Positions 8,317 through 57,014 of a stretch of DNA of 57,014 nt are shown here, piece by piece. Every line of letters begins with the position of its first letter. Within the stretch, counting starts at the first letter, position 1. Under the pieces are notes generated by a model. It made no database searches and was not told the DNA's origin. It saw only the letters and a program-made list of their open reading frames with translations. The stretch is from Nitrospirota bacterium (GTDB lineage Bacteria; Nitrospirota; Nitrospiria; JACQBW01), in contig JACOTA010000064.1 in the NCBI GenBank assembly GCA_016178585.1, forward strand, positions 1 through 57,014, written 5' to 3'. Made by a program: the position numbers and the translations under genes.

Positions 8317-11202
8317 TCAAAATGAGTTTCCCATGCTGAAATAGATTTGTTTCTCTCCTGAGGAATTCAACCCTAAAGCGGTTCCAAGCCGGCCTCGTAC
8401 CGGCAAATGGTAAAAAAGATTGAAATCGACTTTGAATTCGGCTCCGACACCCGTTTTGAAATCCTGGATTGATGGCGTTTGATCCCAGGCGGCTCCGTAA
8501 TCCACAAATAAACCGGCATGGAGCCTTTTGACAAAATAGGGAATGGTTCCACTCCCTTTTTCAACGAGTGGGAAAGGAAACCTGTATTCAAGATTGGCAA
8601 CAATCATATTTTGTCCAATCATCTGATGAGAGGGATACCCTCTTAAAAAAAAATCATCCTGTTCTAGAAAGGGCTGATCAATGACTAAAGGGCCTCCCAA
8701 TTGAAACGCCCGCTGAGCGATTAGCTCCCCTTGACCGATTCCGCCGGTTATTTGGCCTGCCAGGACACCGTGAGGAACAAACAAAGCGTGGTATTCACGG
8801 ATATTTGCGATATATTTAACAAGGTTAAAATCACTTCCTAATTTTTTGTCCGAATCTTCTATCAAGAGCTGAACCGTTCTCCCCTCTTCATGGCTGATAG
8901 ACAAAGGGTATTCTTCGGAAGAGTCATAAATGTATCCCCCTTTGATCGTACTCAGGGTTCCCGTTTGCGGAGGTAGAAATCCAAAAGGAGAAGAAAGGGG
9001 CGAAAAACCTTTTCTTTCAAATCCTATTTTTAGAACCTGCTTTGAATGAAATCTTAAAAAAGGAAATAAAAAATTCGCTTTAAAAATTTGCTGGCGCTCC
9101 CAATAACTATTTCTTTGACCCGTCGAATTGACTAATAAATTGGCATAATATTTTGGCGTATCAGAATACCCAAGGTCAAGGGTAGAGTAGAATTGGTCAT
9201 TCATATAGTCTAACAGGTAAGAAAACCTCTTGCTTTCCAGACCATAAAGGCCCACGACCAGGTACCGATGTTGTCTTAAAACATCTATTCCGGTCGTCCA
9301 GGCTCCCAGTTGGGCCCCCGCTTCGTCAATGCCTCCCCAGGGCACCCAGAATTGGGGAAAAAGGGTCTTCCAGGGAGTATAAGGAACACTTTTAAAGGTT
9401 TCGGGAACCTGTATCTTTTTTGTGTGGTCTTGTCCCGGCCTTTCTTTTATTAAATCCTCTTTTTCTTGCTTCCCTGTGAAAAAAAATTTACTTTCCATCA
9501 CCGCAAGATCGAATCCTTTGGCGCCGTAGGTCGAAAATAAAATCTCTTTTCGACCAGGAGACACAGATGGGAGAAAAACGCCTCCCAGCACATTCGTTAA
9601 TTGACGAATCTCCTTTGTCTTTAGATCGTATCCATGCAGGTTATAGATACCGTTGCGATCTGACACAAACAGAATCTGATCGTCAGTCGTTCCGGGGACA
9701 GGAGTCAGATTTTGAAATGAATCGTCGGTCAGTTGCTCTTTTTCCCGGGTCTTCCGGTCAAATAGATAAATATTTTGTTTCCCCTTTTCCCACCCCGAAA
9801 AGACAATTTTTTCTTCATCATTCAGCCATCTGGGACTGGAAATCAGAAACGAATCTGAAAAAGGGGTCATTCCGATAACCGCTGACTTTTCGAAACTCCA
9901 AAGCGCCAATCTGTTTTTTCCCAGCTCCTCCTGGACAAAAACAAGAAAATGCCCCTGGGGAGAATAATCAACCTCTTTGCCCCTCAATCCATTCGTCAAT
10001 CTTTTGGTCTCTTTTTTTGAAAGATCGCGGGAGTAAAGATCACTAAAAAAGGAAAAGTTTTGATAAACCTCAAGCTGGGAATAGATGATTTTCTGACCAT
10101 CGGGAGACCATGCCGCGTCAAAACCGGTATTCCGCCGGGAAAGAACCCGGTCGTTTTTTCCCTCCCGATCGACAACGTGAAAAGAAGGATAATGATCCGG
10201 GCTATGCTCCGTATATAAAATATTTTTTCCGTCAGGAGAATACCGTCCGCCTAAAATCTCGTTCCCCCTATCCGTTAAAAGACGAACGGACGTAAGGCCC
10301 AAATCCCTGACCTTTTTTGCCGCCGTAGAATAACGAACATTTAATCCAGTCCTCCATTCAGCCCATAAATCAAGGTAATCTCTTTCCAAAACCTCTTCGG
10401 CTGTTTTTTCAACGCGAAACGGAAGCGTATTCCGGCTATATCTACGGCTGATTTCCGTTAACTTTTCGGGCCCATATTTTTTTGCGATAAATTGATAGAA
10501 CTTTGCGCCATAAAGATAGGGGAGAAAACCATCCGGCCAGATTGTTAACGCTCCGCTCGCCTGATCAATGGAATCAAGCTGATGATCCAGCACGGCCATT
10601 CGTAAAATCATTTCGGTAAAAGAGTTATCCATCCGGTCGCTGGTTCCTTCTGTGGTTTCCATATAAACCGCCAACCCTTCAATCATCCAAAGGGGCTGCC
10701 AGATATTTGGAATCGAAAATAACGGGACCGGATTTCTTCCAAAGAAATACCGCATCAATAAAGGGAAACCACCGACCGAATCAAGATGGAGAATATGCGT
10801 ATATTCATGGGTAATGACCACCCGAAGCCAATCCTCATATCGAATCGGTTGAATGCCTAATCCACCCGCGGGCTGGGTAGGGGTTATGGTGATAATATTG
10901 TTCGGAAAGGGGGTTGCCTGACCAAAAACAGCATCGAGATAATCCGAAATAATCAGATCGGTTTTAGACCCCGGCGTCCATTGAAACCGTTGAGAAAGTG
11001 ACTGGTGAACCTCTTCCGCGATCTGTGACGCTTTCAGGGCAATTTCTTGCTCATTTTGATGGTAATAAACCTGAAAATGAGGAGATTCAATAACTTCCCA
11101 TCGTAGCTGTGGATCAAACTTTTCAAAGGGAATGAAGGTTGGCCCGCATCCATAAAGAGAAAAAAAAATAATAAGGGCATAAATCAGCTTGAATCTGCGC
11201 AT
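8317..11202 (-). CDS. Outer-membrane lipoprotein: peptidase-like domain, TolB-like propeller and Omp85-like barrel
   Basis: A 961-residue protein. Residues 1-19 are a lipoprotein signal with lipobox LYGC (Cys19). Residues 36-290 look like a gluzincin metallopeptidase (peptidase MA type): HEYTH at 132-136 gives two zinc His and the catalytic Glu, and EGLAVY at 175-180 gives the third ligand. Residues 305-570 hold repeated SPDGK/WSPDGQ-type blades of a TolB/DPP6-like beta-propeller. From about 605 to the C-terminal Phe the pattern is an outer-membrane barrel of the bacterial surface antigen type, including an FLRGY motif like the Omp85 loop-6 VRGF/Y. No POTRA domain is visible. The architecture is seen directly; an envelope protease or protein-assembly role is inference. 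Confidence 0.8.
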   Translation of the reverse strand: MRRFKLIYALIIFFSLYGCGPTFIPFEKFDPQLRWEVIESPHFQVYYHQNEQEIALKASQIAEEVHQSLSQRFQWTPGSKTDLIISDYLDAVFGQATPFPNNIITITPTQPAGGLGIQPIRYEDWLRVVITHEYTHILHLDSVGGFPLLMRYFFGRNPVPLFSIPNIWQPLWMIEGLAVYMETTEGTSDRMDNSFTEMILRMAVLDHQLDSIDQASGALTIWPDGFLPYLYGAKFYQFIAKKYGPEKLTEISRRYSRNTLPFRVEKTAEEVLERDYLDLWAEWRTGLNVRYSTAAKKVRDLGLTSVRLLTDRGNEILGGRYSPDGKNILYTEHSPDHYPSFHVVDREGKNDRVLSRRNTGFDAAWSPDGQKIIYSQLEVYQNFSFFSDLYSRDLSKKETKRLTNGLRGKEVDYSPQGHFLVFVQEELGKNRLALWSFEKSAVIGMTPFSDSFLISSPRWLNDEEKIVFSGWEKGKQNIYLFDRKTREKEQLTDDSFQNLTPVPGTTDDQILFVSDRNGIYNLHGYDLKTKEIRQLTNVLGGVFLPSVSPGRKEILFSTYGAKGFDLAVMESKFFFTGKQEKEDLIKERPGQDHTKKIQVPETFKSVPYTPWKTLFPQFWVPWGGIDEAGAQLGAWTTGIDVLRQHRYLVVGLYGLESKRFSYLLDYMNDQFYSTLDLGYSDTPKYYANLLVNSTGQRNSYWERQQIFKANFLFPFLRFHSKQVLKIGFERKGFSPLSSPFGFLPPQTGTLSTIKGGYIYDSSEEYPLSISHEEGRTVQLLIEDSDKKLGSDFNLVKYIANIREYHALFVPHGVLAGQITGGIGQGELIAQRAFQLGGPLVIDQPFLEQDDFFLRGYPSHQMIGQNMIVANLEYRFPFPLVEKGSGTIPYFVKRLHAGLFVDYGAAWDQTPSIQDFKTGVGAEFKVDFNLFYHLPVRGRLGTALGLNSSGEKQIYFSMGNSF

Positions 11203-43269: not shown

Positions 43270-44613
43270 TTAATTCCCGGCAATGGTCATTTTTGAAATT
43301 TTTAGAGTCGGCGCGACAATCGATCCGTTAAATTCGAGATCCTTTCCAACCATTTCAATATTCAAAAACATTTCTTTTAAGTTCCCGGCAATGGTAATCT
43401 CTTCAACGGGATAAGCGAGTTCCCCATTCTCAATCCAGTACCCTGCCGCGCCTCGCGAAAAATCCCCGGTGATCATATTCACCCCAAAACCAATCATTTC
43501 GGTTAAATAAAGCCCTGATTTTACGGACCCTATAATTTCTTCGGGTGTGTCATTTCCTTCTTTCATAAAGAAATTGCCGGGGCCGACAGAGGGCGCATCG
43601 CCGATCGATCGGGAGGCATTTCCGGTTGATTTCATTTTTAACTTTTTTGCGGAATAGGTATCTAAAAGATAATTCCTTAAAATCCCGTTTTCGACGACGA
43701 ATTTCCGGCGAACCGGCAATCCTTCCCCATCAAACGGCTTGGACCCTAAACCTTCGGGAAGCGTCCCGTCATCGATCACGGTGACCAGGGAAGAAGCCAC
43801 CCGGGCATTTAATTTCTCAACCAGGAAAGAAGCTCCGCGATAGAGGGCGCTCCCGGAAACGGCTGAAAACAGATTTCCTAAAAGGCTCCCGGCCATTTCG
43901 GGATCAAAAACCACCGGGACCGCACAGGTCTTTATTTTCCGGGCCCCCAGCCTTCGCACCGTCCGTTGGGCCGCCTTAATCCCGACTTCAGAAGGCCTGG
44001 CTAACCGGCTGAATTTTCGATGGGTAGAATACCAGGAGTCCCGCTGCATGTCACCTTGTAGCCCGGCAATCGGAGAAACGGAAATCGAAGAACCTGCCGC
44101 CGGAAAATCACCGTTAAACCCATGGCTATTCATATACCAGATATGACTCCGGTAATGGCTGAGGTCTGCGCCTTCAGAATTGGTGATTTTGGGATCAAAC
44201 GACAAAGCGGCCTGTTCCATCTCTTTGGCCATTTCAATTTTTTGATCAACGGACATTTTTTCGGCGCTGACGTCGTCCAGATTAAGGTCAGGATAATTCC
44301 TGGCCAATTCTTCAGGCTGGGGGAGCCCCGAAAAAGCGTCTTCCTCCGTAGCCTGAGCCATTTCACAGGTGTTATTTAACAAAGTTTCGAGCGATTGACG
44401 GCTCAGATCAGACGTCGCCGAAATAGAAGTCCGCTTTCCAAAAAAAAGTCGTAATCCCAATTTCTTTCCATTGGCTTGACTGATCTTGTCGAGCTTTCCC
44501 ATTCGGACCTGAACCGAAAAGGAATGACTCTCGACAATGATCACATCCCCTTCTGTCGCACCTTTTTTTTTGGCTTTAGCTAAAAGATTTCTGCCGATTT
44601 CCGGATCGATCAT
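43270..44613 (-). CDS. pmbA: TldE/PmbA metalloprotease-complex subunit
   Basis: PmbA (TldE) forms a heterodimer with TldD that degrades or processes peptides; in E. coli it acts in microcin B17 maturation and CcdA turnover. The 447-residue protein has the conserved LGLRLFFGKRTSISATSDLS-like N-terminal half and the C-terminal GDFSRGAAGYWIENGELAYP, which fits TldE (no HExxxH in this subunit). It overlaps the end of tldD by four bases (ATGA). Confidence 0.93.
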   Translation of the reverse strand: MIDPEIGRNLLAKAKKKGATEGDVIIVESHSFSVQVRMGKLDKISQANGKKLGLRLFFGKRTSISATSDLSRQSLETLLNNTCEMAQATEEDAFSGLPQPEELARNYPDLNLDDVSAEKMSVDQKIEMAKEMEQAALSFDPKITNSEGADLSHYRSHIWYMNSHGFNGDFPAAGSSISVSPIAGLQGDMQRDSWYSTHRKFSRLARPSEVGIKAAQRTVRRLGARKIKTCAVPVVFDPEMAGSLLGNLFSAVSGSALYRGASFLVEKLNARVASSLVTVIDDGTLPEGLGSKPFDGEGLPVRRKFVVENGILRNYLLDTYSAKKLKMKSTGNASRSIGDAPSVGPGNFFMKEGNDTPEEIIGSVKSGLYLTEMIGFGVNMITGDFSRGAAGYWIENGELAYPVEEITIAGNLKEMFLNIEMVGKDLEFNGSIVAPTLKISKMTIAGN

Positions 44614-46058
44614 ACTGCAGACCCTCCTACGGTCATCCCTTCAATTTTAATGGTTGGAAGCCCTACCCCGACCGGGACCGACTGTCCATCTTTCCCGCAG
44701 GTCCCTACGCCGGGATCCAGCTGTAGATCGTCTCCCACCATGGACACACGGGTCAAAACATCAGGCCCATTTCCAATTAACGTCGCCCCTTTAACCGGCC
44801 TCGTCACTTTTCCATCTTCAATTAAATAAGCCTCGCTGGCCGAAAAAACGAATTTCCCGTTTGTAATGTCCACCTGACCGCCCCCGAAAGATACCGCATA
44901 CAACCCTCTCTTAACGCTCGAAATAATATCTTCTTTTTTATCTTTGCCCGGCAACATATAGGTATTCGTCATTCTCGGCATCGGGATATGCGCATAACTT
45001 TCTCGCCTGCCGTTCCCGGTGGGGGCCATATTCATCAACCGGGCATTTAGCTTGTCCTGGAGATATCCTTTTAAAATGCCATTTTCGATCAGGACGGTTT
45101 TCCGGGTTTCCGTTCCCTCATCGTCTATATTGAGCGACCCTCTTCTCCCTTTGATTGTTCCATCATCGACAATGGTGCATAACGAAGAAGCGACTTTTTG
45201 ACCGATTCTGTCCGAAAAAGCAGACGTTTTTTTCCGGTTAAAATCCCCTTCCAGGCCATGACCGATCGCCTCATGGAGGAGAATCCCCGGCCATCCGGGG
45301 CCTAAAACAACGTCCATTATGCCCGCGGGTGCGGAAACCGCTGAAAGGTTGAGGACTGCCTGGCGTGCCGCCTCTTTGGCATAAAACTCAAAGAGATGAT
45401 GATCAAGAAAAAACGAAAATTCGTTCCGGCCGCCGCCTCCATAAGTTCCGATTTGACGTTCGCCGCCATCTTCCGCGATGCAGGTAATATTTAAACGGGA
45501 TAAAGGCTGAACATCCCCTACCGCTATCCCATCGGAAGTGACCACATAAATTATCTTATGTTCACTTGAAAACGAAAGCATGACTTTTTTAATTCTCGGA
45601 TCATAGGCCCGGGCAATTCGATCCATTTTTTGCAAAATCTCAACCTTATCTTTAAACGGAACCTCGCTGATCGGCGTATGAACCGGATAAAGATCTTTTT
45701 TAACAGGCTCTTTTCCCGCAATCCCGGTTCTTTTAATCAAAGCCGGCGAAGAGGTAATATATTTTGCCGTATCGGCGGCGATTTCAATATTCTTAAGGGA
45801 AATCTCGTCAGAATACGCAAATCCGGTTTTTTCCTCGGCAGTCGCCCGAACCCCGACCCCCTGACTGATGTTTTTATTGGCTTTCTTAATAATCCCCTCT
45901 TCAAGTGAAATGGAATCGTTCGTCCGGTATTCAAAATAAAGGTCCATATAATCGACCTTATTCCCAAGCGCACGACTCATCGTCTTTTCAAGTTGAGAGG
46001 ATTCTAAACCAAACTTTTCAACAAAAAAATGGTCTGGACTCATAAATTCGTTTGCCAT
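44610..46058 (-). CDS. tldD: Metalloprotease TldD
   Basis: TldD is the catalytic subunit of the TldD/E protease. The 482-residue protein has the metal site HEAIGH (262-267, HExxxH) in LLHEAIGHGLEGDFNRKK, and the later IVDDGTIKGRRGSLNIDDEGT and FSASEAYLIEDGKVTRPVKGATLIGNG. A GGGG site precedes ATG 46058 and a promoter is at 46106-46134. It is coupled to pmbA downstream. No RiPP precursor or modification gene is visible nearby. Confidence 0.95.
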   Translation of the reverse strand: MANEFMSPDHFFVEKFGLESSQLEKTMSRALGNKVDYMDLYFEYRTNDSISLEEGIIKKANKNISQGVGVRATAEEKTGFAYSDEISLKNIEIAADTAKYITSSPALIKRTGIAGKEPVKKDLYPVHTPISEVPFKDKVEILQKMDRIARAYDPRIKKVMLSFSSEHKIIYVVTSDGIAVGDVQPLSRLNITCIAEDGGERQIGTYGGGGRNEFSFFLDHHLFEFYAKEAARQAVLNLSAVSAPAGIMDVVLGPGWPGILLHEAIGHGLEGDFNRKKTSAFSDRIGQKVASSLCTIVDDGTIKGRRGSLNIDDEGTETRKTVLIENGILKGYLQDKLNARLMNMAPTGNGRRESYAHIPMPRMTNTYMLPGKDKKEDIISSVKRGLYAVSFGGGQVDITNGKFVFSASEAYLIEDGKVTRPVKGATLIGNGPDVLTRVSMVGDDLQLDPGVGTCGKDGQSVPVGVGLPTIKIEGMTVGGSAV

Positions 46059-48012: not shown

Positions 48013-48327
48013 CTATTCCTGAATCAGAAGACGTTTTACCACCTCCCCTTTTTCAATATGTTTATCAATAATTTCAATAACATCGATTTCATTTTGAATC
48101 GAGTACCACACCCCCTCGGGGTAAATGACCACCACGGGGCCTCGCGCACACATGTCAAGGCACCCCGCTTTGTTTGCCCGGACTGTTTTCTTTAATCCAC
48201 GGTTGTGAATCTCTTTTTTGAAAATTTCCTGAAGTTCCTTTGCCCTTTTTGCGGCACAGGATCCTTTGGGGTCGTCGACCGGTCTTTCGTTAGTACAGCT
48301 AAAAATATGATATTGGTACTTCGGCAT
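48013..48327 (-). CDS. Thioredoxin-like [2Fe-2S] ferredoxin
   Basis: A 104-residue protein of the Shethna/NuoE-like thioredoxin-fold ferredoxin family: HIFSCTNERP, then GSCAAKRAKELQEIF and KAGCLDMCARGPVVVIYPEGVWY. The Cys residues at about 11, 24, 56 and 60 bind a 2Fe-2S cluster. It may be an electron carrier with unknown partner. The family is typical of diverse anaerobes and aerobes. Confidence 0.9.
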   Translation of the reverse strand: MPKYQYHIFSCTNERPVDDPKGSCAAKRAKELQEIFKKEIHNRGLKKTVRANKAGCLDMCARGPVVVIYPEGVWYSIQNEIDVIEIIDKHIEKGEVVKRLLIQE

Positions 48328-48455: not shown

Positions 48456-48839
48456 ATGAGTGAAGAAAATCAAGGATTTACGGTCTCAGATAAAAGAATT
48501 AAATTAGACGAGCCTGTCGCAGAACCCCCAAAAGAAAAGGCGCCTTCTCAACCGCAAGAAAATAAAAATACTTCTCAGCCGAAAACAGAAGGGGTCGCCC
48601 TCAACTTTTCCGGTTTTCTCCTTTCACTGGGAACTTCCGCCCTTGTCCATTTAGGGGAAAACGCTCTCCCTGACCAGGGGAAAGCAGAACTGAATCTCCC
48701 TCATGCGAAAGAAATCATCGACCTCTTATCCCTTTTAGAGGAAAAAACAAAAGGAAATCTGACCAAAGAAGAAAATAGTCTCCTGTCAAATCTTCTTTAT
48801 ACACTCCGGATGAAGTTTATTGAACTAAAAAACAGGTAG
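48456..48839 (+). CDS. DUF1844 domain protein
   Basis: A 127-residue protein with a disordered N-terminal third (Lys, Glu, Pro and Gln) and the DUF1844 pattern: LNFSGFLLSLGTSALVHLG, then LPHAKEIIDLLSLLEEKTKGNLTKEE and NLLYTLRMKFIEL. DUF1844 proteins are small helical proteins of unknown function in many delta-proteobacteria, Nitrospirota and relatives. It starts at ATG 48456 after AAGGG and leads a plus-strand run with tamB 20 bases further on. Confidence 0.85.
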   Translation: MSEENQGFTVSDKRIKLDEPVAEPPKEKAPSQPQENKNTSQPKTEGVALNFSGFLLSLGTSALVHLGENALPDQGKAELNLPHAKEIIDLLSLLEEKTKGNLTKEENSLLSNLLYTLRMKFIELKNR

Positions 48840-48859
48840 AGTTGTGTCTGGAGTCATGA

Positions 48860-51800
48860 TTGCGGAAAAGAATCATTTTTATTTTCTCTTTAATTATACT
48901 TTCTCTTCTAATCATCAATCTTCTTTTTCGAGGCGGGTTATTTTCCGAGCCTTTAAAAAGATTTGTGGTTAAAAAAATAGAACAAGAACTCCATGCGTCA
49001 GTAGCGGTCGACAAGGTCCGTCTAACTCTATTTCCCGCCTTTCTGATCCTGGATGATTTCGAATTGGAAGAGTCGAAGGATGCTCCCCGGGTATTAAAAT
49101 CGAAACAAATTATCCTTTCTTTTAGTCCATGGTCCCTTCTCACCGAATTTCTTCTCATTAATAAAATCCATTTCCAGGATCCGGAAATCCATCTGATCTG
49201 GAATCATGAAGGAAAAACGAATTTCGATTTTCTTAAAACGGCGTTTGTCCGTTCCAGAGCGCCAAACCAGAAATCCCCTGTCATTATTCAGAAAATCACT
49301 CTTATCAATGGATCTCTTGATATTGATCAAGATCTGAAAAATAATCATGTTTCCATGAAACATATCGAGTTTAAAACCGACACAGACCCAACCATGACCT
49401 TTTTTCAGATTTCCGGATCAGCTAAAAAAATCTCGTATCAGTCGGGCAGAAAAGATGTCGAGACTTTCGCCAGTGCGGATTGGAGATTATCCATAACCCC
49501 GCAGCATTTAGAAATCAAAAGATTCGCTGTCTCGGCCAAAGAAACAGCCGTCACCCTAAAGGGAATCGTCAGTTTTCCGCCTAACCAAAAAACATACCCA
49601 TTTAAAGTCGATTCCGATTTCCATTTCGGCACAAGAGCTTTGCTTGCCGGTTTTGATACTTTAACCGGCCATGGATTGATTGAAGGAAACTACGACGGGG
49701 AAAAACAGATTAAGGGCAGCCTGATCCTGTCTCATCTCGCTTTTGAAAAAGATAAAGGGGTCCACAAGTTTGGGGAACTTAAGAGCCGCTTTTCTTTTGA
49801 GCCCGGGTTGATTTTTTTCGACGATTTTAATTCAAAGTTCTTTGGGGGGAAAATTGACGGAAAAATCAAGTTCCGGTTTAATGACTCCTCCAGCCTTTTG
49901 GAAACCGACTATCGTTTGCATAATGTCTCTTTATCCCAGCCAGTCTTATTGTTTTTTCCCCGCTACAAAATTTATTCAGACGGAAAAACGCTTGACGCCT
50001 CGGGAACCTTGAAATTAATCAATATGGATATGCACCAGCTCAGTGGTTCCGGACACTTTCGTCTGACGGGAACGCCCCAAAGGGTTTTAAACTCCAAAAC
50101 CCCGTTATGGGAAAGCGCAATGAACGCCCTCGTCCTCGCAGAGACTGATTATGAGTTGCGCTCTTCTGCCTTTTTTTTTAGCCATTCCTCTTTGCAAATC
50201 GGCTCCTCTTTGATTAACGGAAACGGCGCCGTACAGCAGGGGGGAACATTTTCAACTTTTCTAAACTTAAGATCGGAAAACGGCGGAGAAGTCATTTCCT
50301 GGTTGGGGTATCCTCAGTGGTCGGGCGCGGTTGACTTTACCGGAGAAGCCCGGGGAACATTCACCTCTCCCGTATTCGAAGGCAAAGGAACCGCTTCCAA
50401 TGTGTTTTTTGACAATCATTCATTGGGAACAGGGTCGGCTCATTTAAAATATTCCGATCACCGGCTCGAGTTTACCCAGGTAAAAATAAATAAAGGCAAA
50501 GGAGAATATTCCGGAGAAGGCAACATTCACTGGAAGTCCCTGGATGAATTTAATTATCAAATCAATGCCTTCGCCTCGCCCGGAATTCCTGACGACATCA
50601 TTCGTATTTTTATTGACAACATTCCTCTCTATACTCAAGCCACGGGACCGGTCGTCATCAGCGGAGACCATCAAACATTCAGCGTAAAAGGAAATTTGGA
50701 CGTGGCGAACGGATTCATTTACGATCAAGGTTTTGATCAAGGGCACGTTGAAATTGAAATTACCGGGTCCGGCGTTTCCTTCAACAAAACATCGTTAGTT
50801 CATGGAAACTCCTCCGTCACCGGAAAGGGAAAAATATTCTTCAACGGAGAATACGAAGGGGAATTAAAATCTGAAAATTTTCGTTTCACGGATTTAACCG
50901 TTTTAAATCAAACTCTTCCTGAAGTTCAAGGCTCCTTCAACGGAAACATCCACGGCAGTGGAACATTTGAACATCCGGACCTGATACTGGCGGGCGCCCT
51001 GGCGGATTTATCTTATAAAAATCAAAAAATAAAACCAGGATTAATCGCCCTCACCCTGGCGGATAAAGAACTTAAAACACATCTCACATTTAATGAATAT
51101 CCCATGATCGTCGACGGGTCTATCGGCATCACGACTCCTTTTGTTTCAAAACTTGAAATTCAGGGAGAAAAAATCCCTTTGGGTTCCTGGTTCAACGCCT
51201 TTAACGCCGAATCCAATTTTCAGGCCCAATCTTTTACGGGCTCCGTTTCAGGAAAAATCGGGATTGAGGGGCCCTTGAACGATCCCAAAAGTTTAAACCT
51301 TTCAGCCCATTTGACCCAATTAAAAGCCGATTTATCGGGTTATGAGATTATCAATCAGGAAGAGATCGTTTTTACCCTTTCCGATGGAAAACTCAACATA
51401 GATTCATGCCGATTAAAAGGCGAGGGAACGACCCTGTCCATTGCCGGCGGATTAGATCTCTTCAGGCAATATCGGCTTTTTATAACGGGGGAAGCCGATC
51501 TGTCGTTATTAAAAGCGCTAAGGAAGGAGATTACTTACGGAAAAGGAAAGGCCTATCTGGCCCTTAATATTTATGATCGTTGGAATGATCCAAAACTACA
51601 GGGTGGTCTAACCATTCAGGATGGTCAAATTCGAACCACGGCCGTTTCTCAGGCTATCCGTATTTCTTCAATGGCCCTTTTCTTTAATGAACGTCAGGTT
51701 TTTCTTGAATCATTGGATGCCGGGTTTGGAGAAGGAGCGCTTCACGGGACCGGAAAAATTGATCTCGATCGCTTTAAAGTCGCACATTTCGGATTGATAT

Positions 51801-52759
51801 TGGAGGCCAAAGAGAGTCGTTTTTCGCTTTTTCCGGGTTGGACATCCACTGTTTCAGGAAGTCTCTTTTACCAGGGAGACCTTTCCACTCAGGCTCTTCA
51901 AGGAGAATTGACGCTGAATCACGGGGTCTATAACAAAAAAATTGACGTTAGATCGTTATTGACTAAATTGTCCGAACTGGAAGAAAAAACAGAGCCGACG
52001 CCTTTAATAGGAAAAACACGATTAAACGTCCGGCTTACCGGGGATGACGATTTAAGAATCAATAATAACCTTGCCCGGCTTCCTTTCACGGTGGATTTAA
52101 CCGTAAAGGGAACTGTAGACCATCCCGTATTAATTGGAAGAATGGAGGCTGACTCCGGTTCGATTCTCTTTTATAATCGAACTTTTAGCGTCAATTCCAT
52201 CGCGGTCGATTTTATCGATCCCGAAGCCATCAAACCCCTCATTGATTTAAAAGCCCGGACCCAGGTTACCGGGAAAGACAACAAATCTTATCAAATTGAT
52301 TTAAGTTTTGCCGGGGGTTTGGATAAGATTAAGCCAACGCTTACCGCAGACGACCCGGGTCTCACGGAAACGGATATCCTGTCTCTCATTCTTGCGGGTC
52401 GAACGGCGACAGAGGTTGCAACGGATCCTTTTTCTCAGCAGCAAATCGGCGGCCAGTTCGTCCCTTTAGTGATCGAATCTCCCCTGGAAGGGTTATTGGA
52501 GGATCTCACGGGAGTCAACAGGTTATTTATTGAACCCTTGCCTTCCGGAATACGGTCAACCGGCGGGCCTCGAGTCACCGTAGAACAACGTTTATTGGGA
52601 GAAAAGCTTCTATTGACCTATTCGTATACCATTAACCCCTCACAGGATCAAATTATCAAGATGGAATATTTAATTAACCGCCATATTTTTTTACAGGGAA
52701 TTAGAAACGAAGAAGGAAACGCCGGAGGCAATTTAAAGTTTCGTTTTGAATTTAAATAA
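48860..52759 (+). CDS. tamB: TamB-like translocation and assembly protein
   Basis: TamB is anchored in the inner membrane and spans the periplasm as a long beta-groove, working with TamA in outer-membrane protein assembly and phospholipid transport. The 1299-residue protein has an N-terminal membrane helix (about 4-25), an AsmA-like region and a very long beta-rich body. Its C-terminal DUF490 includes PFTVDLTVKGTVDHPVLIGRMEADSGSI-like strands, the typical TETDILSLILAGR, and a closing strand. TTG 48860 has GGAG six bases before it. The Omp85 gene follows after 11 bases, so this is a TamB-TamA type pair. Confidence 0.92.
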   Translation: MRKRIIFIFSLIILSLLIINLLFRGGLFSEPLKRFVVKKIEQELHASVAVDKVRLTLFPAFLILDDFELEESKDAPRVLKSKQIILSFSPWSLLTEFLLINKIHFQDPEIHLIWNHEGKTNFDFLKTAFVRSRAPNQKSPVIIQKITLINGSLDIDQDLKNNHVSMKHIEFKTDTDPTMTFFQISGSAKKISYQSGRKDVETFASADWRLSITPQHLEIKRFAVSAKETAVTLKGIVSFPPNQKTYPFKVDSDFHFGTRALLAGFDTLTGHGLIEGNYDGEKQIKGSLILSHLAFEKDKGVHKFGELKSRFSFEPGLIFFDDFNSKFFGGKIDGKIKFRFNDSSSLLETDYRLHNVSLSQPVLLFFPRYKIYSDGKTLDASGTLKLINMDMHQLSGSGHFRLTGTPQRVLNSKTPLWESAMNALVLAETDYELRSSAFFFSHSSLQIGSSLINGNGAVQQGGTFSTFLNLRSENGGEVISWLGYPQWSGAVDFTGEARGTFTSPVFEGKGTASNVFFDNHSLGTGSAHLKYSDHRLEFTQVKINKGKGEYSGEGNIHWKSLDEFNYQINAFASPGIPDDIIRIFIDNIPLYTQATGPVVISGDHQTFSVKGNLDVANGFIYDQGFDQGHVEIEITGSGVSFNKTSLVHGNSSVTGKGKIFFNGEYEGELKSENFRFTDLTVLNQTLPEVQGSFNGNIHGSGTFEHPDLILAGALADLSYKNQKIKPGLIALTLADKELKTHLTFNEYPMIVDGSIGITTPFVSKLEIQGEKIPLGSWFNAFNAESNFQAQSFTGSVSGKIGIEGPLNDPKSLNLSAHLTQLKADLSGYEIINQEEIVFTLSDGKLNIDSCRLKGEGTTLSIAGGLDLFRQYRLFITGEADLSLLKALRKEITYGKGKAYLALNIYDRWNDPKLQGGLTIQDGQIRTTAVSQAIRISSMALFFNERQVFLESLDAGFGEGALHGTGKIDLDRFKVAHFGLILEAKESRFSLFPGWTSTVSGSLFYQGDLSTQALQGELTLNHGVYNKKIDVRSLLTKLSELEEKTEPTPLIGKTRLNVRLTGDDDLRINNNLARLPFTVDLTVKGTVDHPVLIGRMEADSGSILFYNRTFSVNSIAVDFIDPEAIKPLIDLKARTQVTGKDNKSYQIDLSFAGGLDKIKPTLTADDPGLTETDILSLILAGRTATEVATDPFSQQQIGGQFVPLVIESPLEGLLEDLTGVNRLFIEPLPSGIRSTGGPRVTVEQRLLGEKLLLTYSYTINPSQDQIIKMEYLINRHIFLQGIRNEEGNAGGNLKFRFEFK

Positions 52760-52770
52760 TAATCGGACCT

Positions 52771-55560
52771 ATGAACCTGCTCCCTTTTAAACGCCCATGC
52801 CTGATTTTTTTCGTGATCCTCCTTCTTTTTTACCCTCTGGTGGAAGCTATCGGTTTTGAAACGGATTCGTCGGTTCCGATCGTAACAAGCATTTCCATTC
52901 AAAACCCCCAGGGAGAATCCTATAAACGCCTGATCAAAGATTTACCCATTTCCGTTGGAAGCCGTTTTTCAACAAAAGTCGTTAAAAAAAGCATGGAGCG
53001 GCTTTACGAAACGGGCCTTTTTTCTAACGTCATCGTCGCCACCGATAAGGGTTCAAGCGGGATTTCGATAAAACTAATCGTATTGGATAAGTTGAGAATT
53101 GGAGGTTTCGTTTGGAAAGGAAACGAATATTTTTTCCGCGAAAGGTTGGAAGAGGTTTCCAGGTTAAAGGTTGAGGATGAGCTCGTTCAGGGATGGGAGA
53201 AAGACCTTGAACAGACGTTAATCCGGTTTTATCATCGTGAAGGTTTTTTCAACGCAAAAATCGACGTTGGGTCTCGCCCCATGGGGAAGCCCAGCCGGCT
53301 TCAGGTCGAGATTAAGATCCAGGAAGGGATTCAAAGTACCATTGGAAATATCTATTTTTCCGGGAATCCCGGCTTCGATCAAGAACGGTTGCTGGAAGTT
53401 TTGAGGATTCATCCCGGTTTTTATTACTCAAGAGAGACGATTCAAAATGATATCGAAAATTTAAAACCCTTTTATTACAGGGCAAGGTATTTAAAAGTGA
53501 AAATCAGAGACTTTGCCGTTCACACGCAGGGCGACGATAGAGTCGCCATTGAAATACCTGTTGAAGCAGGTCCCCGAATATTCACGTTTATTTCCTTCAA
53601 AGGTCCCCGCCACTATCTGAAGACGACGCTGGTCCGGCAACTCCTGATCGACGAAGAAAAAAGCATCGACGATGCGACAATAGAAGAAAGTAAAAAACGG
53701 CTTTCGGAATTCTATCAAAATGAAGGGTACCCTTTTGTTGAAATAACGGTTGAACGCCGGGAAGAAAATAACGGGAAAATCGTCAACGTTTATTTCCATA
53801 TTGCGGAAGGCCCGGCAGTCCTTTTGACCCGCCTGGTTTTCAAAGGAAACGCCTCAATATCAGACGACATTTTGAAAAATGTCATTGGCCATCAAAAAAC
53901 AGGATTTTGGATTCCCCGCTATCTCCAGCTTCCCGCGCTTCAAAATGACCTGGAATCTCTGCTCAAGGTTTACCGGTCACATGGTTTTCTGTCAGCCAAG
54001 ATTAATAAATCCCTTCATTATTCCCCCGACCAGGCCACTGTTGCTCTCGAATTTGAAATCTCGGAAGGGGTCCAGACCCTCGTTCAATCCGTGACCCTGG
54101 AGGAAATCTCACAAACCTTTCTTCCGGATATTTTAAAAAAAATTCAGATCCGAGAAAATAGTCCTTATAACGAGGCCGTGATTCTCGAAGATAAGATCGC
54201 TATTGCTTCTTACTACCATAAGCTTGGTTATCCGGACGTCAACATCGAGGCAACAGCCGCCTTCAGCAAAACCACGGACCGCGTAGATGTCAAATATAAG
54301 GTTGATGAAGGAAATCAAATAAAGATCGGAAAAATCCTGGCAACAGGAAACGAAAGAACCCGGACGGGCGTCATTTTGAGAGAGTTGTATTTCCATTCAG
54401 GGGACCTTTACCAGGAAGAACTTCTTTTGAAAAGTCAAAGAAAGATCTCCCAGCTCGGTTATTTCCAATTTGTGAACATCCGCCCAAAAGACGCAGAGGA
54501 AGACCAGGTCGTTCGCGATGTTGAAGTCAATGTAAAGGAACGAGACGCCGGCGCATTTGAGTTTGGAGCGGGTTACGCCGATGTCGAACGATTTAAGGGT
54601 TTTGCTGAAATTTCACATAAAAATATCGGAGGAACCGGCCGAAGGGCAAGTCTGGGAGCAGAGGTAAGCCAGATTGGGGATAAAGAGACCGCCAATTATA
54701 CCGAACCGTGGATATTTGATTTTCCCCTGGATGCCAGGGCCTCAATTTATCACGAATCGATACAAAAACTACCCGCGAGTTACACCCAAACCACCGTCGG
54801 AGGCTCTGTGGGGGTCGAGAAATCGTTTTGGGATTATTATAAATTTTCTCTCCAGTACCAAAACGACATTTTTCATTTTATCAATGTTCCTATAAATGCC
54901 GTGTTAACACAGGAAGACAAGGACCGCGTAAATATTGCAAGTCTAAATCCATCACTATTCAGAGACACACGGGATGATTTTTTAAACCCTAAAACGGGAT
55001 CTTTTAACGCGATCTGGTTCCGCTGGGCAGCGAATTTTTTGGCTTCCGAAATACAGGAAGTTAAGCTCACCCTCCAGTCAAGCTGGTATTTTCCCCTGAC
55101 ACCTAACCTGATTATGGGGATTTCTTCACGCGGCGGAGTCGCGTATAACTTTGGGGAAACTCCAGATGTCCCAATCAGTGAACGTTTCAAATTGGGAGGA
55201 CGATCAACAGTAAGAGGGTACGCGGAAGATACCCTGGGCACCCTCGGACAAACGATTAACCCTTCGATGATTAACCCGTTGGTCTTCACTCCGACGGGAG
55301 GAAACTCCATGTTGGTTTTCAACTGGGAATTCCGGTTCAACCTTCCAAAAAACCTGGGGCTTGTCTTCTTTTTTGATTCCGGAAATGTCTGGCGATATCA
55401 TAATTCCATTTGGTCCTCACCGCTGAAGTCTTCGGTCGGACCAGGTTTGCGGTATAATACTCCTATAGGCCCTATTCGGTTTGACGTCGGATATAAATTA
55501 AACCGGGAGGAATGGGAAAGCGCTTCAGAATTTCATTTTACTCTGGGCCACGCTTTTTGA
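52771..55560 (+). CDS. Omp85-family outer-membrane protein with seven POTRA-like repeats (TamA/BamA-like)
   Basis: A 929-residue protein with a signal peptide (about 1-26). Residues 36-592 hold seven POTRA-like units, each ending in a long strand. Boundaries, by eye, are 36-106, 107-187, 188-267, 268-348, 349-434, 435-514 and 515-592, with motifs such as FYHREGFFNAKI, FYQNEGYPFVEI, YRSHGFLSAKI and YYHKLGYPDVNI. The C-terminal 16-strand barrel (about 593-929) has VRGYAEDTLG for the loop-6 motif and ends in Phe. BamA has five POTRAs and TamA three. Being next to tamB suggests the TamA role; a BamA-like role is possible. Confidence 0.92.
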   Translation: MNLLPFKRPCLIFFVILLLFYPLVEAIGFETDSSVPIVTSISIQNPQGESYKRLIKDLPISVGSRFSTKVVKKSMERLYETGLFSNVIVATDKGSSGISIKLIVLDKLRIGGFVWKGNEYFFRERLEEVSRLKVEDELVQGWEKDLEQTLIRFYHREGFFNAKIDVGSRPMGKPSRLQVEIKIQEGIQSTIGNIYFSGNPGFDQERLLEVLRIHPGFYYSRETIQNDIENLKPFYYRARYLKVKIRDFAVHTQGDDRVAIEIPVEAGPRIFTFISFKGPRHYLKTTLVRQLLIDEEKSIDDATIEESKKRLSEFYQNEGYPFVEITVERREENNGKIVNVYFHIAEGPAVLLTRLVFKGNASISDDILKNVIGHQKTGFWIPRYLQLPALQNDLESLLKVYRSHGFLSAKINKSLHYSPDQATVALEFEISEGVQTLVQSVTLEEISQTFLPDILKKIQIRENSPYNEAVILEDKIAIASYYHKLGYPDVNIEATAAFSKTTDRVDVKYKVDEGNQIKIGKILATGNERTRTGVILRELYFHSGDLYQEELLLKSQRKISQLGYFQFVNIRPKDAEEDQVVRDVEVNVKERDAGAFEFGAGYADVERFKGFAEISHKNIGGTGRRASLGAEVSQIGDKETANYTEPWIFDFPLDARASIYHESIQKLPASYTQTTVGGSVGVEKSFWDYYKFSLQYQNDIFHFINVPINAVLTQEDKDRVNIASLNPSLFRDTRDDFLNPKTGSFNAIWFRWAANFLASEIQEVKLTLQSSWYFPLTPNLIMGISSRGGVAYNFGETPDVPISERFKLGGRSTVRGYAEDTLGTLGQTINPSMINPLVFTPTGGNSMLVFNWEFRFNLPKNLGLVFFFDSGNVWRYHNSIWSSPLKSSVGPGLRYNTPIGPIRFDVGYKLNREEWESASEFHFTLGHAF

Positions 55561-55574
55561 TTATAAGGACCCCA

Positions 55575-56864
55575 ATGAGAAAAATATTTTTTTTCGGTTT
55601 GTCAGGAATGGTTATTCTGTTTTTGGTTTATTTCACGACCGGGAAAACCTTTCAAAGCTCGCAGATTCAGACCGGAGCCGTTCGGAGAATTCAGGATTCA
55701 AATCCAGCCGTGGTTAAGCTGAATCAGGCCGGGTTGCGCTATTTTGAATCCAAACAATTTGAAATGGCGAGAGACCAGTTCAAGTCGGCGCTTGAACTAT
55801 CGCCAAACGACCCTACGCTCTTGAATAACCTGGCGTTTTCCCAAATGGAAATCGGAAAAATTCAGGGACAAAAACTTCAATTAAAGGAAGCCATTGCCTC
55901 TTTTGAATCGGCCATTCAAATTAATCCGAATATTTCTACGTTTCATGTCGGCGCCGGGTGGGCCTATGACAAAGCGGAACAGGAGGAAAAGGCCCTCCAG
56001 GAACTGGAGGAAGCCATTCGCCTAAATCCAAAAGAAATATTGGCCTATCAATTGCTGGGAGATATTTACTACAAAAATGACAACCCTGATAAGGCCATAG
56101 AGGCCCTGGAAAAAGCCCTTGCCCTTCAGCCTGATGAGAAATCACTTCAACAGCGATTGGCGAAAATTAAACAGGACCGAAATACCGAGTCTAAATTTGA
56201 AAAATCCGCTTCTTTTCACTTTACAATAAAATTTGAAGGAGAAGAAAACAAAGAGATCGCTCAAAAGGTTTCAGAAATTTTGGAAGCGGCCTACCGTGAC
56301 ATTGGATCCATCTTTTATCAAAAATCTTTTCGTCCGGTGATCGTTATTCTCTATTCCGATAAATTGTTTCGGGAAACGGTTCACAGTCCCTCATGGGCGG
56401 GAGGGATATACGACGGAAAAATCCGGATTCCGGTCCAGGGGTCCGCCAAAGACCCTGAAGGACTTAGAAGAATCTTATACCATGAGTACACCCACGCGGT
56501 CCTTTTCCAACTTACGCCGTCCCCTATTCCGACCTGGTTAAATGAGGGATTGGCAATGTATTTTGAAGGAAACCATTCTATGAATAACGCCCTTCAAATC
56601 GTAGATTCCGCGAGGCGGGAGGGAAGGTTGATCCCTCTGCGCCGCCTGCAGGGAACTTTTATGGATATGGACGCAAACACCTCTGAGCTGGCCTACCAGG
56701 AAAGCAGAATTGCCGTTCAAAACTTAATCGATCATTACAGTATCAAGCGCATTCGCGACGTTTTAGAAAGGTATAGAGGACTTGACCAATTCGCTTCGGT
56801 TTTTGAAGAGGGCTTTCTGATCTCCTATGATGACTATGAAAAGTCCTTTATGGCCGGTAAATAG
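55575..56864 (+). CDS. TPR protein with peptidase MA-like metalloprotease domain
   Basis: A 429-residue protein with an N-terminal membrane anchor or signal (about 4-22) and three to four TPRs (about 45-200; AGLRYFESKQFEMARDQFKSAL-type repeats). The C-terminal domain has HEYTH (303-307) followed by PTWLNEGLAMYFEG (EGLAMY 324-329), a gluzincin-type zinc site of peptidase MA. ATG 55575 has AAGGA five bases before it; the frame is open from 55512 but inside the Omp85 gene. It follows the Omp85 stop by 14 bases, so one transcript is likely. Periplasmic protease or chaperone is inference. Confidence 0.85.
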   Translation: MRKIFFFGLSGMVILFLVYFTTGKTFQSSQIQTGAVRRIQDSNPAVVKLNQAGLRYFESKQFEMARDQFKSALELSPNDPTLLNNLAFSQMEIGKIQGQKLQLKEAIASFESAIQINPNISTFHVGAGWAYDKAEQEEKALQELEEAIRLNPKEILAYQLLGDIYYKNDNPDKAIEALEKALALQPDEKSLQQRLAKIKQDRNTESKFEKSASFHFTIKFEGEENKEIAQKVSEILEAAYRDIGSIFYQKSFRPVIVILYSDKLFRETVHSPSWAGGIYDGKIRIPVQGSAKDPEGLRRILYHEYTHAVLFQLTPSPIPTWLNEGLAMYFEGNHSMNNALQIVDSARREGRLIPLRRLQGTFMDMDANTSELAYQESRIAVQNLIDHYSIKRIRDVLERYRGLDQFASVFEEGFLISYDDYEKSFMAGK

Positions 56865-56905
56865 TGATCAACATGGGCCTGCGACATAGAAGTAGGGAAA
56901 TTCAG

Positions 56906-57014
56906 CTAGGCTGTGCGTTGTTCCCAGAACTCCTCTATTTGGTTGGAGAGATAGCCGCACCGGAGGGCGATGATTGCATTGGCGCCCCGCACGGTCCACT
57001 CCATACCAGATTGT
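56906..57014 (-). CDS. Transposase C-terminus (probable ISKra4 family), cut by the window edge
   Basis: On the minus strand the last 35 codons read QSGMEWTVRGANAIIALRC...IEEFWEQRTA then stop (TAG, 56908-56906). I recognise this ending from ISKra4-like insertion-sequence transposases, where the GMxWxVxGAxAIxxLR string precedes a short FWEQR tail. Only the C-terminus is in the window. It lies 41 bases from the stop of the TPR-peptidase gene, so the IS inserted just outside the Omp85 cluster. Confidence 0.6.
   Translation of the reverse strand, partial: QSGMEWTVRGANAIIALRCGYLSNQIEEFWEQRTA

Follow-up and report, generated by a model that had tools for sequence, protein, structure and literature searches.

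Results

A four-gene cluster at the end of a contig

The window analysed here, by which we mean the whole stretch of 57,014 nucleotides, is an entire contig (C64, JACOTA010000064.1) of a Nitrospirota bacterium whose genome assembly (GCA_016178585.1) comprises 2.45 Mb and is 96% complete. Near its end four genes follow each other on the plus strand, with gaps of 20, 11 and 14 bases, and encode a DUF1844 protein, a TamB-like protein, an Omp85 protein with seven POTRA domains and a TPR protein with a C-terminal gluzincin domain. We propose, with a probability of roughly 0.6, that they form an assembly machine resembling the translocation and assembly module (TAM), to which a protease is added as an accessory and, in most relatives, an envelope sensor of its own. 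The initial annotation had described the genes as a probable envelope-assembly operon. Pfam matches, motifs and the POTRA model support an envelope-assembly cluster, in which TamB is anchored in the inner membrane, the Omp85 has seven POTRAs and the TPR-gluzincin is secreted or anchored. Its gaps also agree with the open reading frames (ORFs) when the fourth gene starts at ATG 55575; the ORF program had listed that frame from 55512, overlapping the Omp85 gene, and the start at 55575 yields the 14-base gap and precedes a hydrophobic stretch like that of a signal anchor. The four genes would presumably share a transcript. Sigma-70-like sites in the region were not clearly commoner than in shuffled sequences (15 vs 12.3), and terminators were not clearly above the shuffles.

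The first gene (48456-48839) encodes 127 residues matching PF08899 at 92 bits (cut-off 27). A sequence scan found no signal peptide and no hydrophobic membrane segment, and the protein is therefore probably cytoplasmic. Its structure model (predicted local distance difference test, pLDDT, 74.5; predicted template modelling score 0.54) has helices at residues 51-65, 81-97 and 104-126, so that the C-terminal domain is predicted to consist of three helices. The model matched no PDB structure at E up to 0.001, and phmmer found no match to the sequence up to E 1.

The second gene (48860-52759, TTG start) encodes a protein of 1299 residues with AsmA, DUF748 and TamB matches in Pfam. The TamB domain PF04357 scores 133.8 bits (cut-off 22.4) and reaches the last-but-one residue; in the genome-level search it was placed at 51728-52753 with 124.3 bits. 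The N-terminus is AsmA/DUF748-like, and hydrophobicity peaks there at 3.03 over residues 5-23, as in a signal anchor. The TamB equivalog NF047952, which we take to model the TamB type that is partnered with TamA, gave 33.6 bits against a cut-off of 825, and we therefore call the protein TamB-like, a member of the broader Pfam family and no more than that.

A second BamA-like protein beside TamB

The third gene (52771-55560) encodes an Omp85 protein of 929 residues, in which Pfam finds POTRA in seven stretches and an Omp85 domain at 181.8 bits. A local POTRA model likewise places seven consecutive domains at residues 29-599 (52855-54567), with i-Evalues from 3e-7 to 3e-19. A VRGY motif at residues 814-817 (55210-55221) is the Omp85 loop-6 signature. 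The NCBIfam model for BamA, TIGR03303, scores 510.4 bits against a cut-off of 297.15, and a warning is in place here: automatic annotation will name this protein BamA. The same genome holds another Omp85 on contig C19 (locus L066), a protein of 768 residues with five POTRAs by the local model, whose gene adjoins an OmpH/Skp-like gene, and which speaks against the window protein being the canonical BamA. Among the 58 genomes of relatives surveyed, 26 are without the seven-POTRA protein, and the five-POTRA BamA type occurs in such genomes, which marks the seven-POTRA protein as the dispensable one.

The pair had been labelled TamAB at first, and like a tamA gene the Omp85 gene does lie next to tamB. 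The label did not survive closer comparison. The TamA equivalog NF047950 gives 123.3 bits against a cut-off of 625, and among the Pfam matches listed there is no POTRA_TamA_1 domain (PF17243) at E up to 1, a domain that the true TamA proteins of loci L211 and L196 do match; there are, besides, seven POTRAs. A tree of 72 Omp85 proteins, drawn from five named groups after ten pre-chosen loci (near-copies or fragments) had been set aside, has a clade of five TamA rows and one of nine BamA rows, both with support 100 and both excluding the window protein. A third clade holds 38 of the 39 TamB-linked Nitrospirota rows (support 87 in the Shimodaira-Hasegawa-like approximate likelihood ratio test). 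Judged by its sequence and its place in the tree, the window Omp85 is a second BamA-like protein, neither TamA nor the BamA of the cell.

Of 30 Nitrospiria rows, 21 have seven POTRAs by the local model, and several of the others are contig fragments or have shortened starts. The same number of POTRAs is counted in 17 of 18 rows of other Nitrospirota and, for Acidobacteriota, in 14 of 16. The count covers proteins above 300 bits, has one BamA entered twice and includes L065 in two pieces. True TamA-TamB genes and the seven-POTRA system occur in one and the same genome in G036, G042 and G004, of the window's class, and in G153 of another class. The true TamA-TamB loci in question, L211, L196, L237 and L238, thus give two TAM-type systems per cell.

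Conservation of the TamB-Omp85 pair

The initial annotation had named conservation of the gene neighbourhood as a check, and the pair passes it well. We annotated 29 loci from the relatives, a number that leaves out the window itself and the genomes G026 and G044 with fragmented Omp85 genes; presence lists for the tally over 58 genomes were compiled by hand. The seven-POTRA Omp85 is found in 32 of the 58 genomes, in 30 at no less than 394 bits and in G026 and G044 by fragments. TamB accompanies it in 30 of these 32 genomes and occurs in none of the other 26. It lies directly upstream of Omp85 on the same strand in 25 of the 29 loci, and the remaining four have at most 369 bases of sequence upstream of Omp85 before the contig ends. 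The gene order in the window is thus more than chance. DUF1844 precedes TamB in 17 of the 29 loci and was found in 51 of the 58 genomes. One genome of the window's own family (G002, 95% complete) is without the seven-POTRA Omp85, TamB, the peptidase, DUF1844 and NtrY all together; as 5% of it may be missing, an assembly gap could have the same effect.

Across the phylum, TamB is present in 140 of 245 Nitrospirota genomes. In 19 loci of other Nitrospirota families with a TamB not partnered by TamA, a large Omp85 follows TamB directly in 16, lies a few genes off in one and is not found nearby in two; DUF1844 is near in four of the 19 and the peptidase in none. Among Acidobacteriota, 54 of 60 genomes have TamB, and in most of 20 loci Omp85 genes adjoin it, without the cluster peptidase. 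Since the pair spans other Nitrospirota families and Acidobacteriota, it is old and widespread. Among the loci examined, the link with the peptidase is particular to the window's class and its near kin (L116, L118).

A weak TamB match (E 1.8e-6) in G186, a genome of family f12, is at odds with the absence of TamB from that family. In L190 a GlnD-type protein, with the GlnD domain shown, lies upstream of TamB (L190:3928-6492), and a gene of GlnD size does so in several other loci including L185 and L187. SurA-like proteins are encoded downstream in L190 and L185, in the latter along with NfeD and band-7 genes.

The TPR-gluzincin

The product of the fourth gene (55575-56864) is a protein of 429 residues with a signal-anchor-like hydrophobic N-terminus, TPR repeats and a C-terminal Peptidase_MA_2 domain (PF13485, 64.2 bits, cut-off 32.4), as seen in the frame, Pfam, the alignment and the structure model. 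It has the HExxH motif and the downstream glutamate that define gluzincins (clan MA), namely HEYTH at residues 303-307 (56481-56495) and, within an NEG at residues 323-325 (56541-56549), Glu324, which we assume to be the third zinc ligand. H303, E304 and H307 as well as N323, E324 and G325 are invariant in all 17 cluster peptidases aligned, and for this reason the zinc site is likely to be active. The nearest relative, G001 of the same family, has a peptidase that is 62% identical. In the structure model (mean pLDDT 85.7) the structure matches are TPR proteins only, and the catalytic part is barely covered by them. The peptidase is not BepA by score: the equivalog NF052400 gives 27 bits against a cut-off of 570, and on the TPR part only. 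Peptidase_M48 (PF01435) is not among the best 25 of 37 families matched, while four M48 matches lie elsewhere in the genome. In BepA the TPR part follows the protease; in the window peptidase it stands before the protease, which is the reverse order.

In a peptidase tree, one group of 31 rows with support 96 contains 18 of 20 cluster-linked proteins and four of six from loci where the remaining genes stand without TamB-Omp85; the tree has long branches, and its details are uncertain for that reason.

A two-component system next to the cluster in most relatives

Behind the peptidase gene 150 bases remain to the end of the window (56865-57014). What lies beyond this edge in most relatives, a two-component system, is the larger finding. 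Downstream of Omp85 in the 29 loci we found an NtrY-like kinase in 22, a DUF4390 protein in 21 and an NtrX-like regulator in 20, and through much of the run from the cluster to NtrYX the start codon of one gene overlaps the stop codon of the previous one, e.g. in L059; several loci also have an overlap of a few bases between the peptidase and DUF4390 genes. The domains are well seen in L039, where DUF4390 scores 104.9 bits, the NtrY-type kinase has HAMP and PAS domains, and the response regulator includes a sigma-54 activator domain. DUF4390 stands directly before NtrY-NtrX in relatives, which is the arrangement of PlrP-NtrYX. Of the 32 genomes that have the seven-POTRA Omp85, 30 also have DUF4390, the exceptions being the window's own and G001; the other 26 are all without it. 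In G001 the NtrY-like kinase begins about 20 bases past the peptidase stop codon.

A search at E up to 1e-20 gave a single NtrY match in the window's genome, near the end of contig C10 and followed by NtrX, and these are the orthologues of the NtrY-NtrX genes in relatives. Both contig ends are assembly breaks, and the cluster on C64 and NtrY-NtrX on C10 may therefore be neighbours across a gap. Near the C10 end (L261) a repeat-like stretch and a small ORF on the opposite strand lie between the contig end and NtrY, and may explain the break in the assembly.

In families f2 and f12, genomes without TamB and the seven-POTRA Omp85 have DUF1844 followed by NtrY and NtrX in five of five loci (L203, L205, L206, L216 and L217), of which L203 alone has the peptidase between DUF1844 and NtrY. 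Among 80 loci from named genomes, L129, L134 and L152 also show the order DUF1844-peptidase-NtrY. Most NtrX proteins carry GAFTG; in these loci without TamB the motif is kept in L205 and L216 and is not present in L203, L206 and L217. We considered whether NtrX could autoregulate the cluster through sigma-54 and rejected this, as no upstream sites were found with a -24/-12 consensus.

According to excerpts of the respective papers, PlrP (DUF4390) is a third component of NtrYX that restrains the phosphatase activity of the NtrY-type sensor in Bordetella (PMC13001219), and loss of NtrYX in Rhodobacter sphaeroides alters the envelope and raises outer-membrane permeability (PMC7240162).

Discussion

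The most rational explanation of the cluster is in our opinion a TAM-like machine with added parts. TamB would be anchored in the inner membrane, span the periplasm and dock through its C-terminal domain on the POTRAs of a dedicated Omp85, one that arose from BamA and has seven POTRAs instead of five. By analogy with TAM and with TamB-BamA, the two together could carry out the insertion of some of the outer-membrane proteins, the delivery of phospholipids to the outer membrane, or both. We see the pair as a periplasm-spanning conduit because of the TAM literature and because the C-terminus of TamB has been reported, in an excerpt on Borreliella, to bind the POTRAs of BamA (PMC11361582). The TPR-gluzincin would sit at the inner membrane, on its periplasmic side. 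There its TPRs might hold stalled or misassembled clients for the HExxH site to cut, as BepA does for LptD at the β-barrel assembly machinery (BAM), although this is a tentative analogy that we would sooner doubt than trust. In the relatives, DUF4390 (PlrP), NtrY and NtrX could report on the state of the machine or tune its expression, a regulatory link that we propose because of gene order and co-occurrence.

A number of observations weigh against this reading. Only 16 of the 29 loci have the TPR-gluzincin after Omp85, and no match to it at E up to 1e-30 was found in 10 of the 32 genomes with the seven-POTRA Omp85, several f8 genomes among them having kept TamB-Omp85. The peptidase is thus not essential to the core, and the linkage of a peptidase, from which the initial annotation had suggested assembly coupled to proteolysis, holds for those 16 loci and fails in the rest; for the same reason such coupling is just possible, as far as sequences can tell. 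DUF4390 was not found in a search of the window's own genome, and in 8 of the 30 genomes that have it DUF4390-NtrYX is unlinked from Omp85. On C10, NtrY starts about 460 bases from the contig end, which leaves its adjacency to the cluster unproven. No sigma-54 -24/-12 site with at least 10 of 12 matches was found upstream of the cluster genes, where 0.08-0.26 would be expected per set. The joint absences are mostly (22 of 26) in one family, f2, and represent few independent losses. The third Omp85 clade has moderate support, and L183 is the sole TamB-linked Nitrospirota row that falls outside it.

The foremost alternative is an ordinary TAM made of TamB and a duplicated BamA, in which the peptidase, DUF1844 and NtrYX are bystanders carried along by shared transcription or inherited order. 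It agrees with the phylum-wide pair, which lacks the peptidase in all 19 loci of other families although 16 have Omp85 directly after TamB, with the GlnD or other genes upstream of TamB there, and with the fact that the peptidase and NtrYX blocks can separate. Against it stand the following observations: in 56 of 58 genomes DUF4390 and the seven-POTRA Omp85 are either both present or both absent, seven of the eight displaced DUF4390 genes still have NtrY next to them (six of them NtrX too, and the eighth stretch ends just past DUF4390), and G002 is without core, peptidase, DUF1844 and NtrY alike, the missing 5% permitting. We regard this alternative as rather unlikely.

Another alternative is that the TPR-gluzincin is a signalling protease that serves NtrYX rather than TamB. 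Upon faults in the outer membrane it would cleave or bind a signal protein of the periplasm, for which PlrP/DUF4390 or the sensor domain of NtrY might be candidates. The persistence of DUF1844-peptidase-NtrY without TamB-Omp85 (L203, L129, L134, L152), the grouping of four of six such peptidases with 18 of 20 cluster-linked ones and the overlap of the peptidase and DUF4390 genes would all fit. On the other hand, DUF4390-NtrY(X) follows Omp85 without a linked peptidase in L042, L044, L048, L051, L056 and L061, and in the literature searched we found neither a cleavage site nor a precedent. We consider a signalling protease improbable. That the window Omp85 is the functional BamA of the organism, and the cluster its BAM locus, is hardly credible in spite of the 510 bits with TIGR03303 (cut-off 297), when a five-POTRA Omp85 of 768 residues is encoded beside an OmpH-domain gene.

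The TAM-like machine with accessory protease and sensor could be taken one step further, to a locus that monitors itself. The TamB-Omp85 conduit would be cleared by the protease, which removes or processes failed clients, and PlrP-NtrY-NtrX would sense the state of the conduit, with PlrP or the protease as periplasmic reporter and DUF1844 as a cytoplasmic partner at the inner-membrane end. We offer this as a speculation that is unlikely to hold. The conserved TamB-Omp85/PlrP-NtrYX locus makes it testable whether the state of an assembly machine sets the phosphorylation of NtrX.

Relationship to known systems

The initial annotation knew of no characterised system with this set of genes, which for the core must be corrected. 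Excerpts of Heinz et al. 2015 (PMC4494059) report that Acidobacteria have duplicated BamAs with seven POTRAs, encoded in operons with TamB, and suggest that TAM originated from BamA-TamB. The window resembles these in having a BamA-derived seven-POTRA Omp85 beside TamB and a second, canonical BamA in the genome, and differs in gene order, which is TamB-Omp85 here and BamA-TamB there. The core of TamB and seven-POTRA Omp85 is accordingly a new member of a published arrangement. In the text of that paper (PMC4494059) neither of the terms nitrosp and peptidase occurs, and our additions to it are the distribution in Nitrospirota, the coexistence with true TamA-TamB, the class-limited peptidase, and the neighbourhood of DUF1844 and PlrP-NtrYX. 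The acidobacterial pairing of a BamA duplicate with TamB is thereby extended across Nitrospirota, where some genomes keep the pair beside true TamA-TamB. For the whole gene combination we found no description in the literature searched, part of which was available as excerpts.

With the proteobacterial TAM the window shares a TamB and a dedicated second Omp85 in one operon, and assembly of outer-membrane proteins or lipids is the probable common role; TamA differs from the window Omp85 in its POTRA_TamA_1 domain, its fewer POTRAs and its clade. Borreliella and other Spirochaetes likewise combine TamB with a BamA-type Omp85 and have the same order, TamB-BamA (excerpts of PMC11361582), but their partner is the only BamA and has five POTRAs (Heinz et al. 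2015, PMC4494059, in part), unlike that of the window. For the peptidase the nearest working analogy is BepA, which according to excerpts acts in the periplasm as a zinc peptidase and either matures or degrades LptD at BAM (PMC8423444). The two have in common a periplasmic zinc-protease motif, TPRs and an association with an Omp85 machine (PMC8423444, PMC7950410, both in part), and they differ in family, Peptidase_MA_2 as against M48. The PlrP-PlrS-PlrR/NtrYX system and the relatives of the window have DUF4390, an NtrY-like kinase and an NtrX-like regulator in the same order, and according to the same excerpts rsmB precedes PlrP-NtrYX in beta- and gamma-proteobacteria, whereas TamB-Omp85-(peptidase) does so in the relatives (PMC13001219).

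Other genes in the window

Divergent from the DUF1844 gene lies a gene for a small 2Fe-2S ferredoxin-like protein (48013-48327, minus strand), which scores 102.9 bits with fdxn_Clost and does not reach the cut-off of 150. A TldD metalloprotease is encoded at 43270-46058 on the minus strand (615.8 bits, cut-off 513), and a neighbour of 447 residues that overlaps it by four bases is perhaps PmbA. Two further Omp85-type proteins were seen outside the cluster. One is a weak match in a frame of 976 residues on contig C79 of the same genome, and the other, with no POTRA match, is a protein of 961 residues at 8317-11202 of the window (minus strand), which combines PD40/DPPIV-like propeller repeats with a C-terminal Omp85-type barrel.

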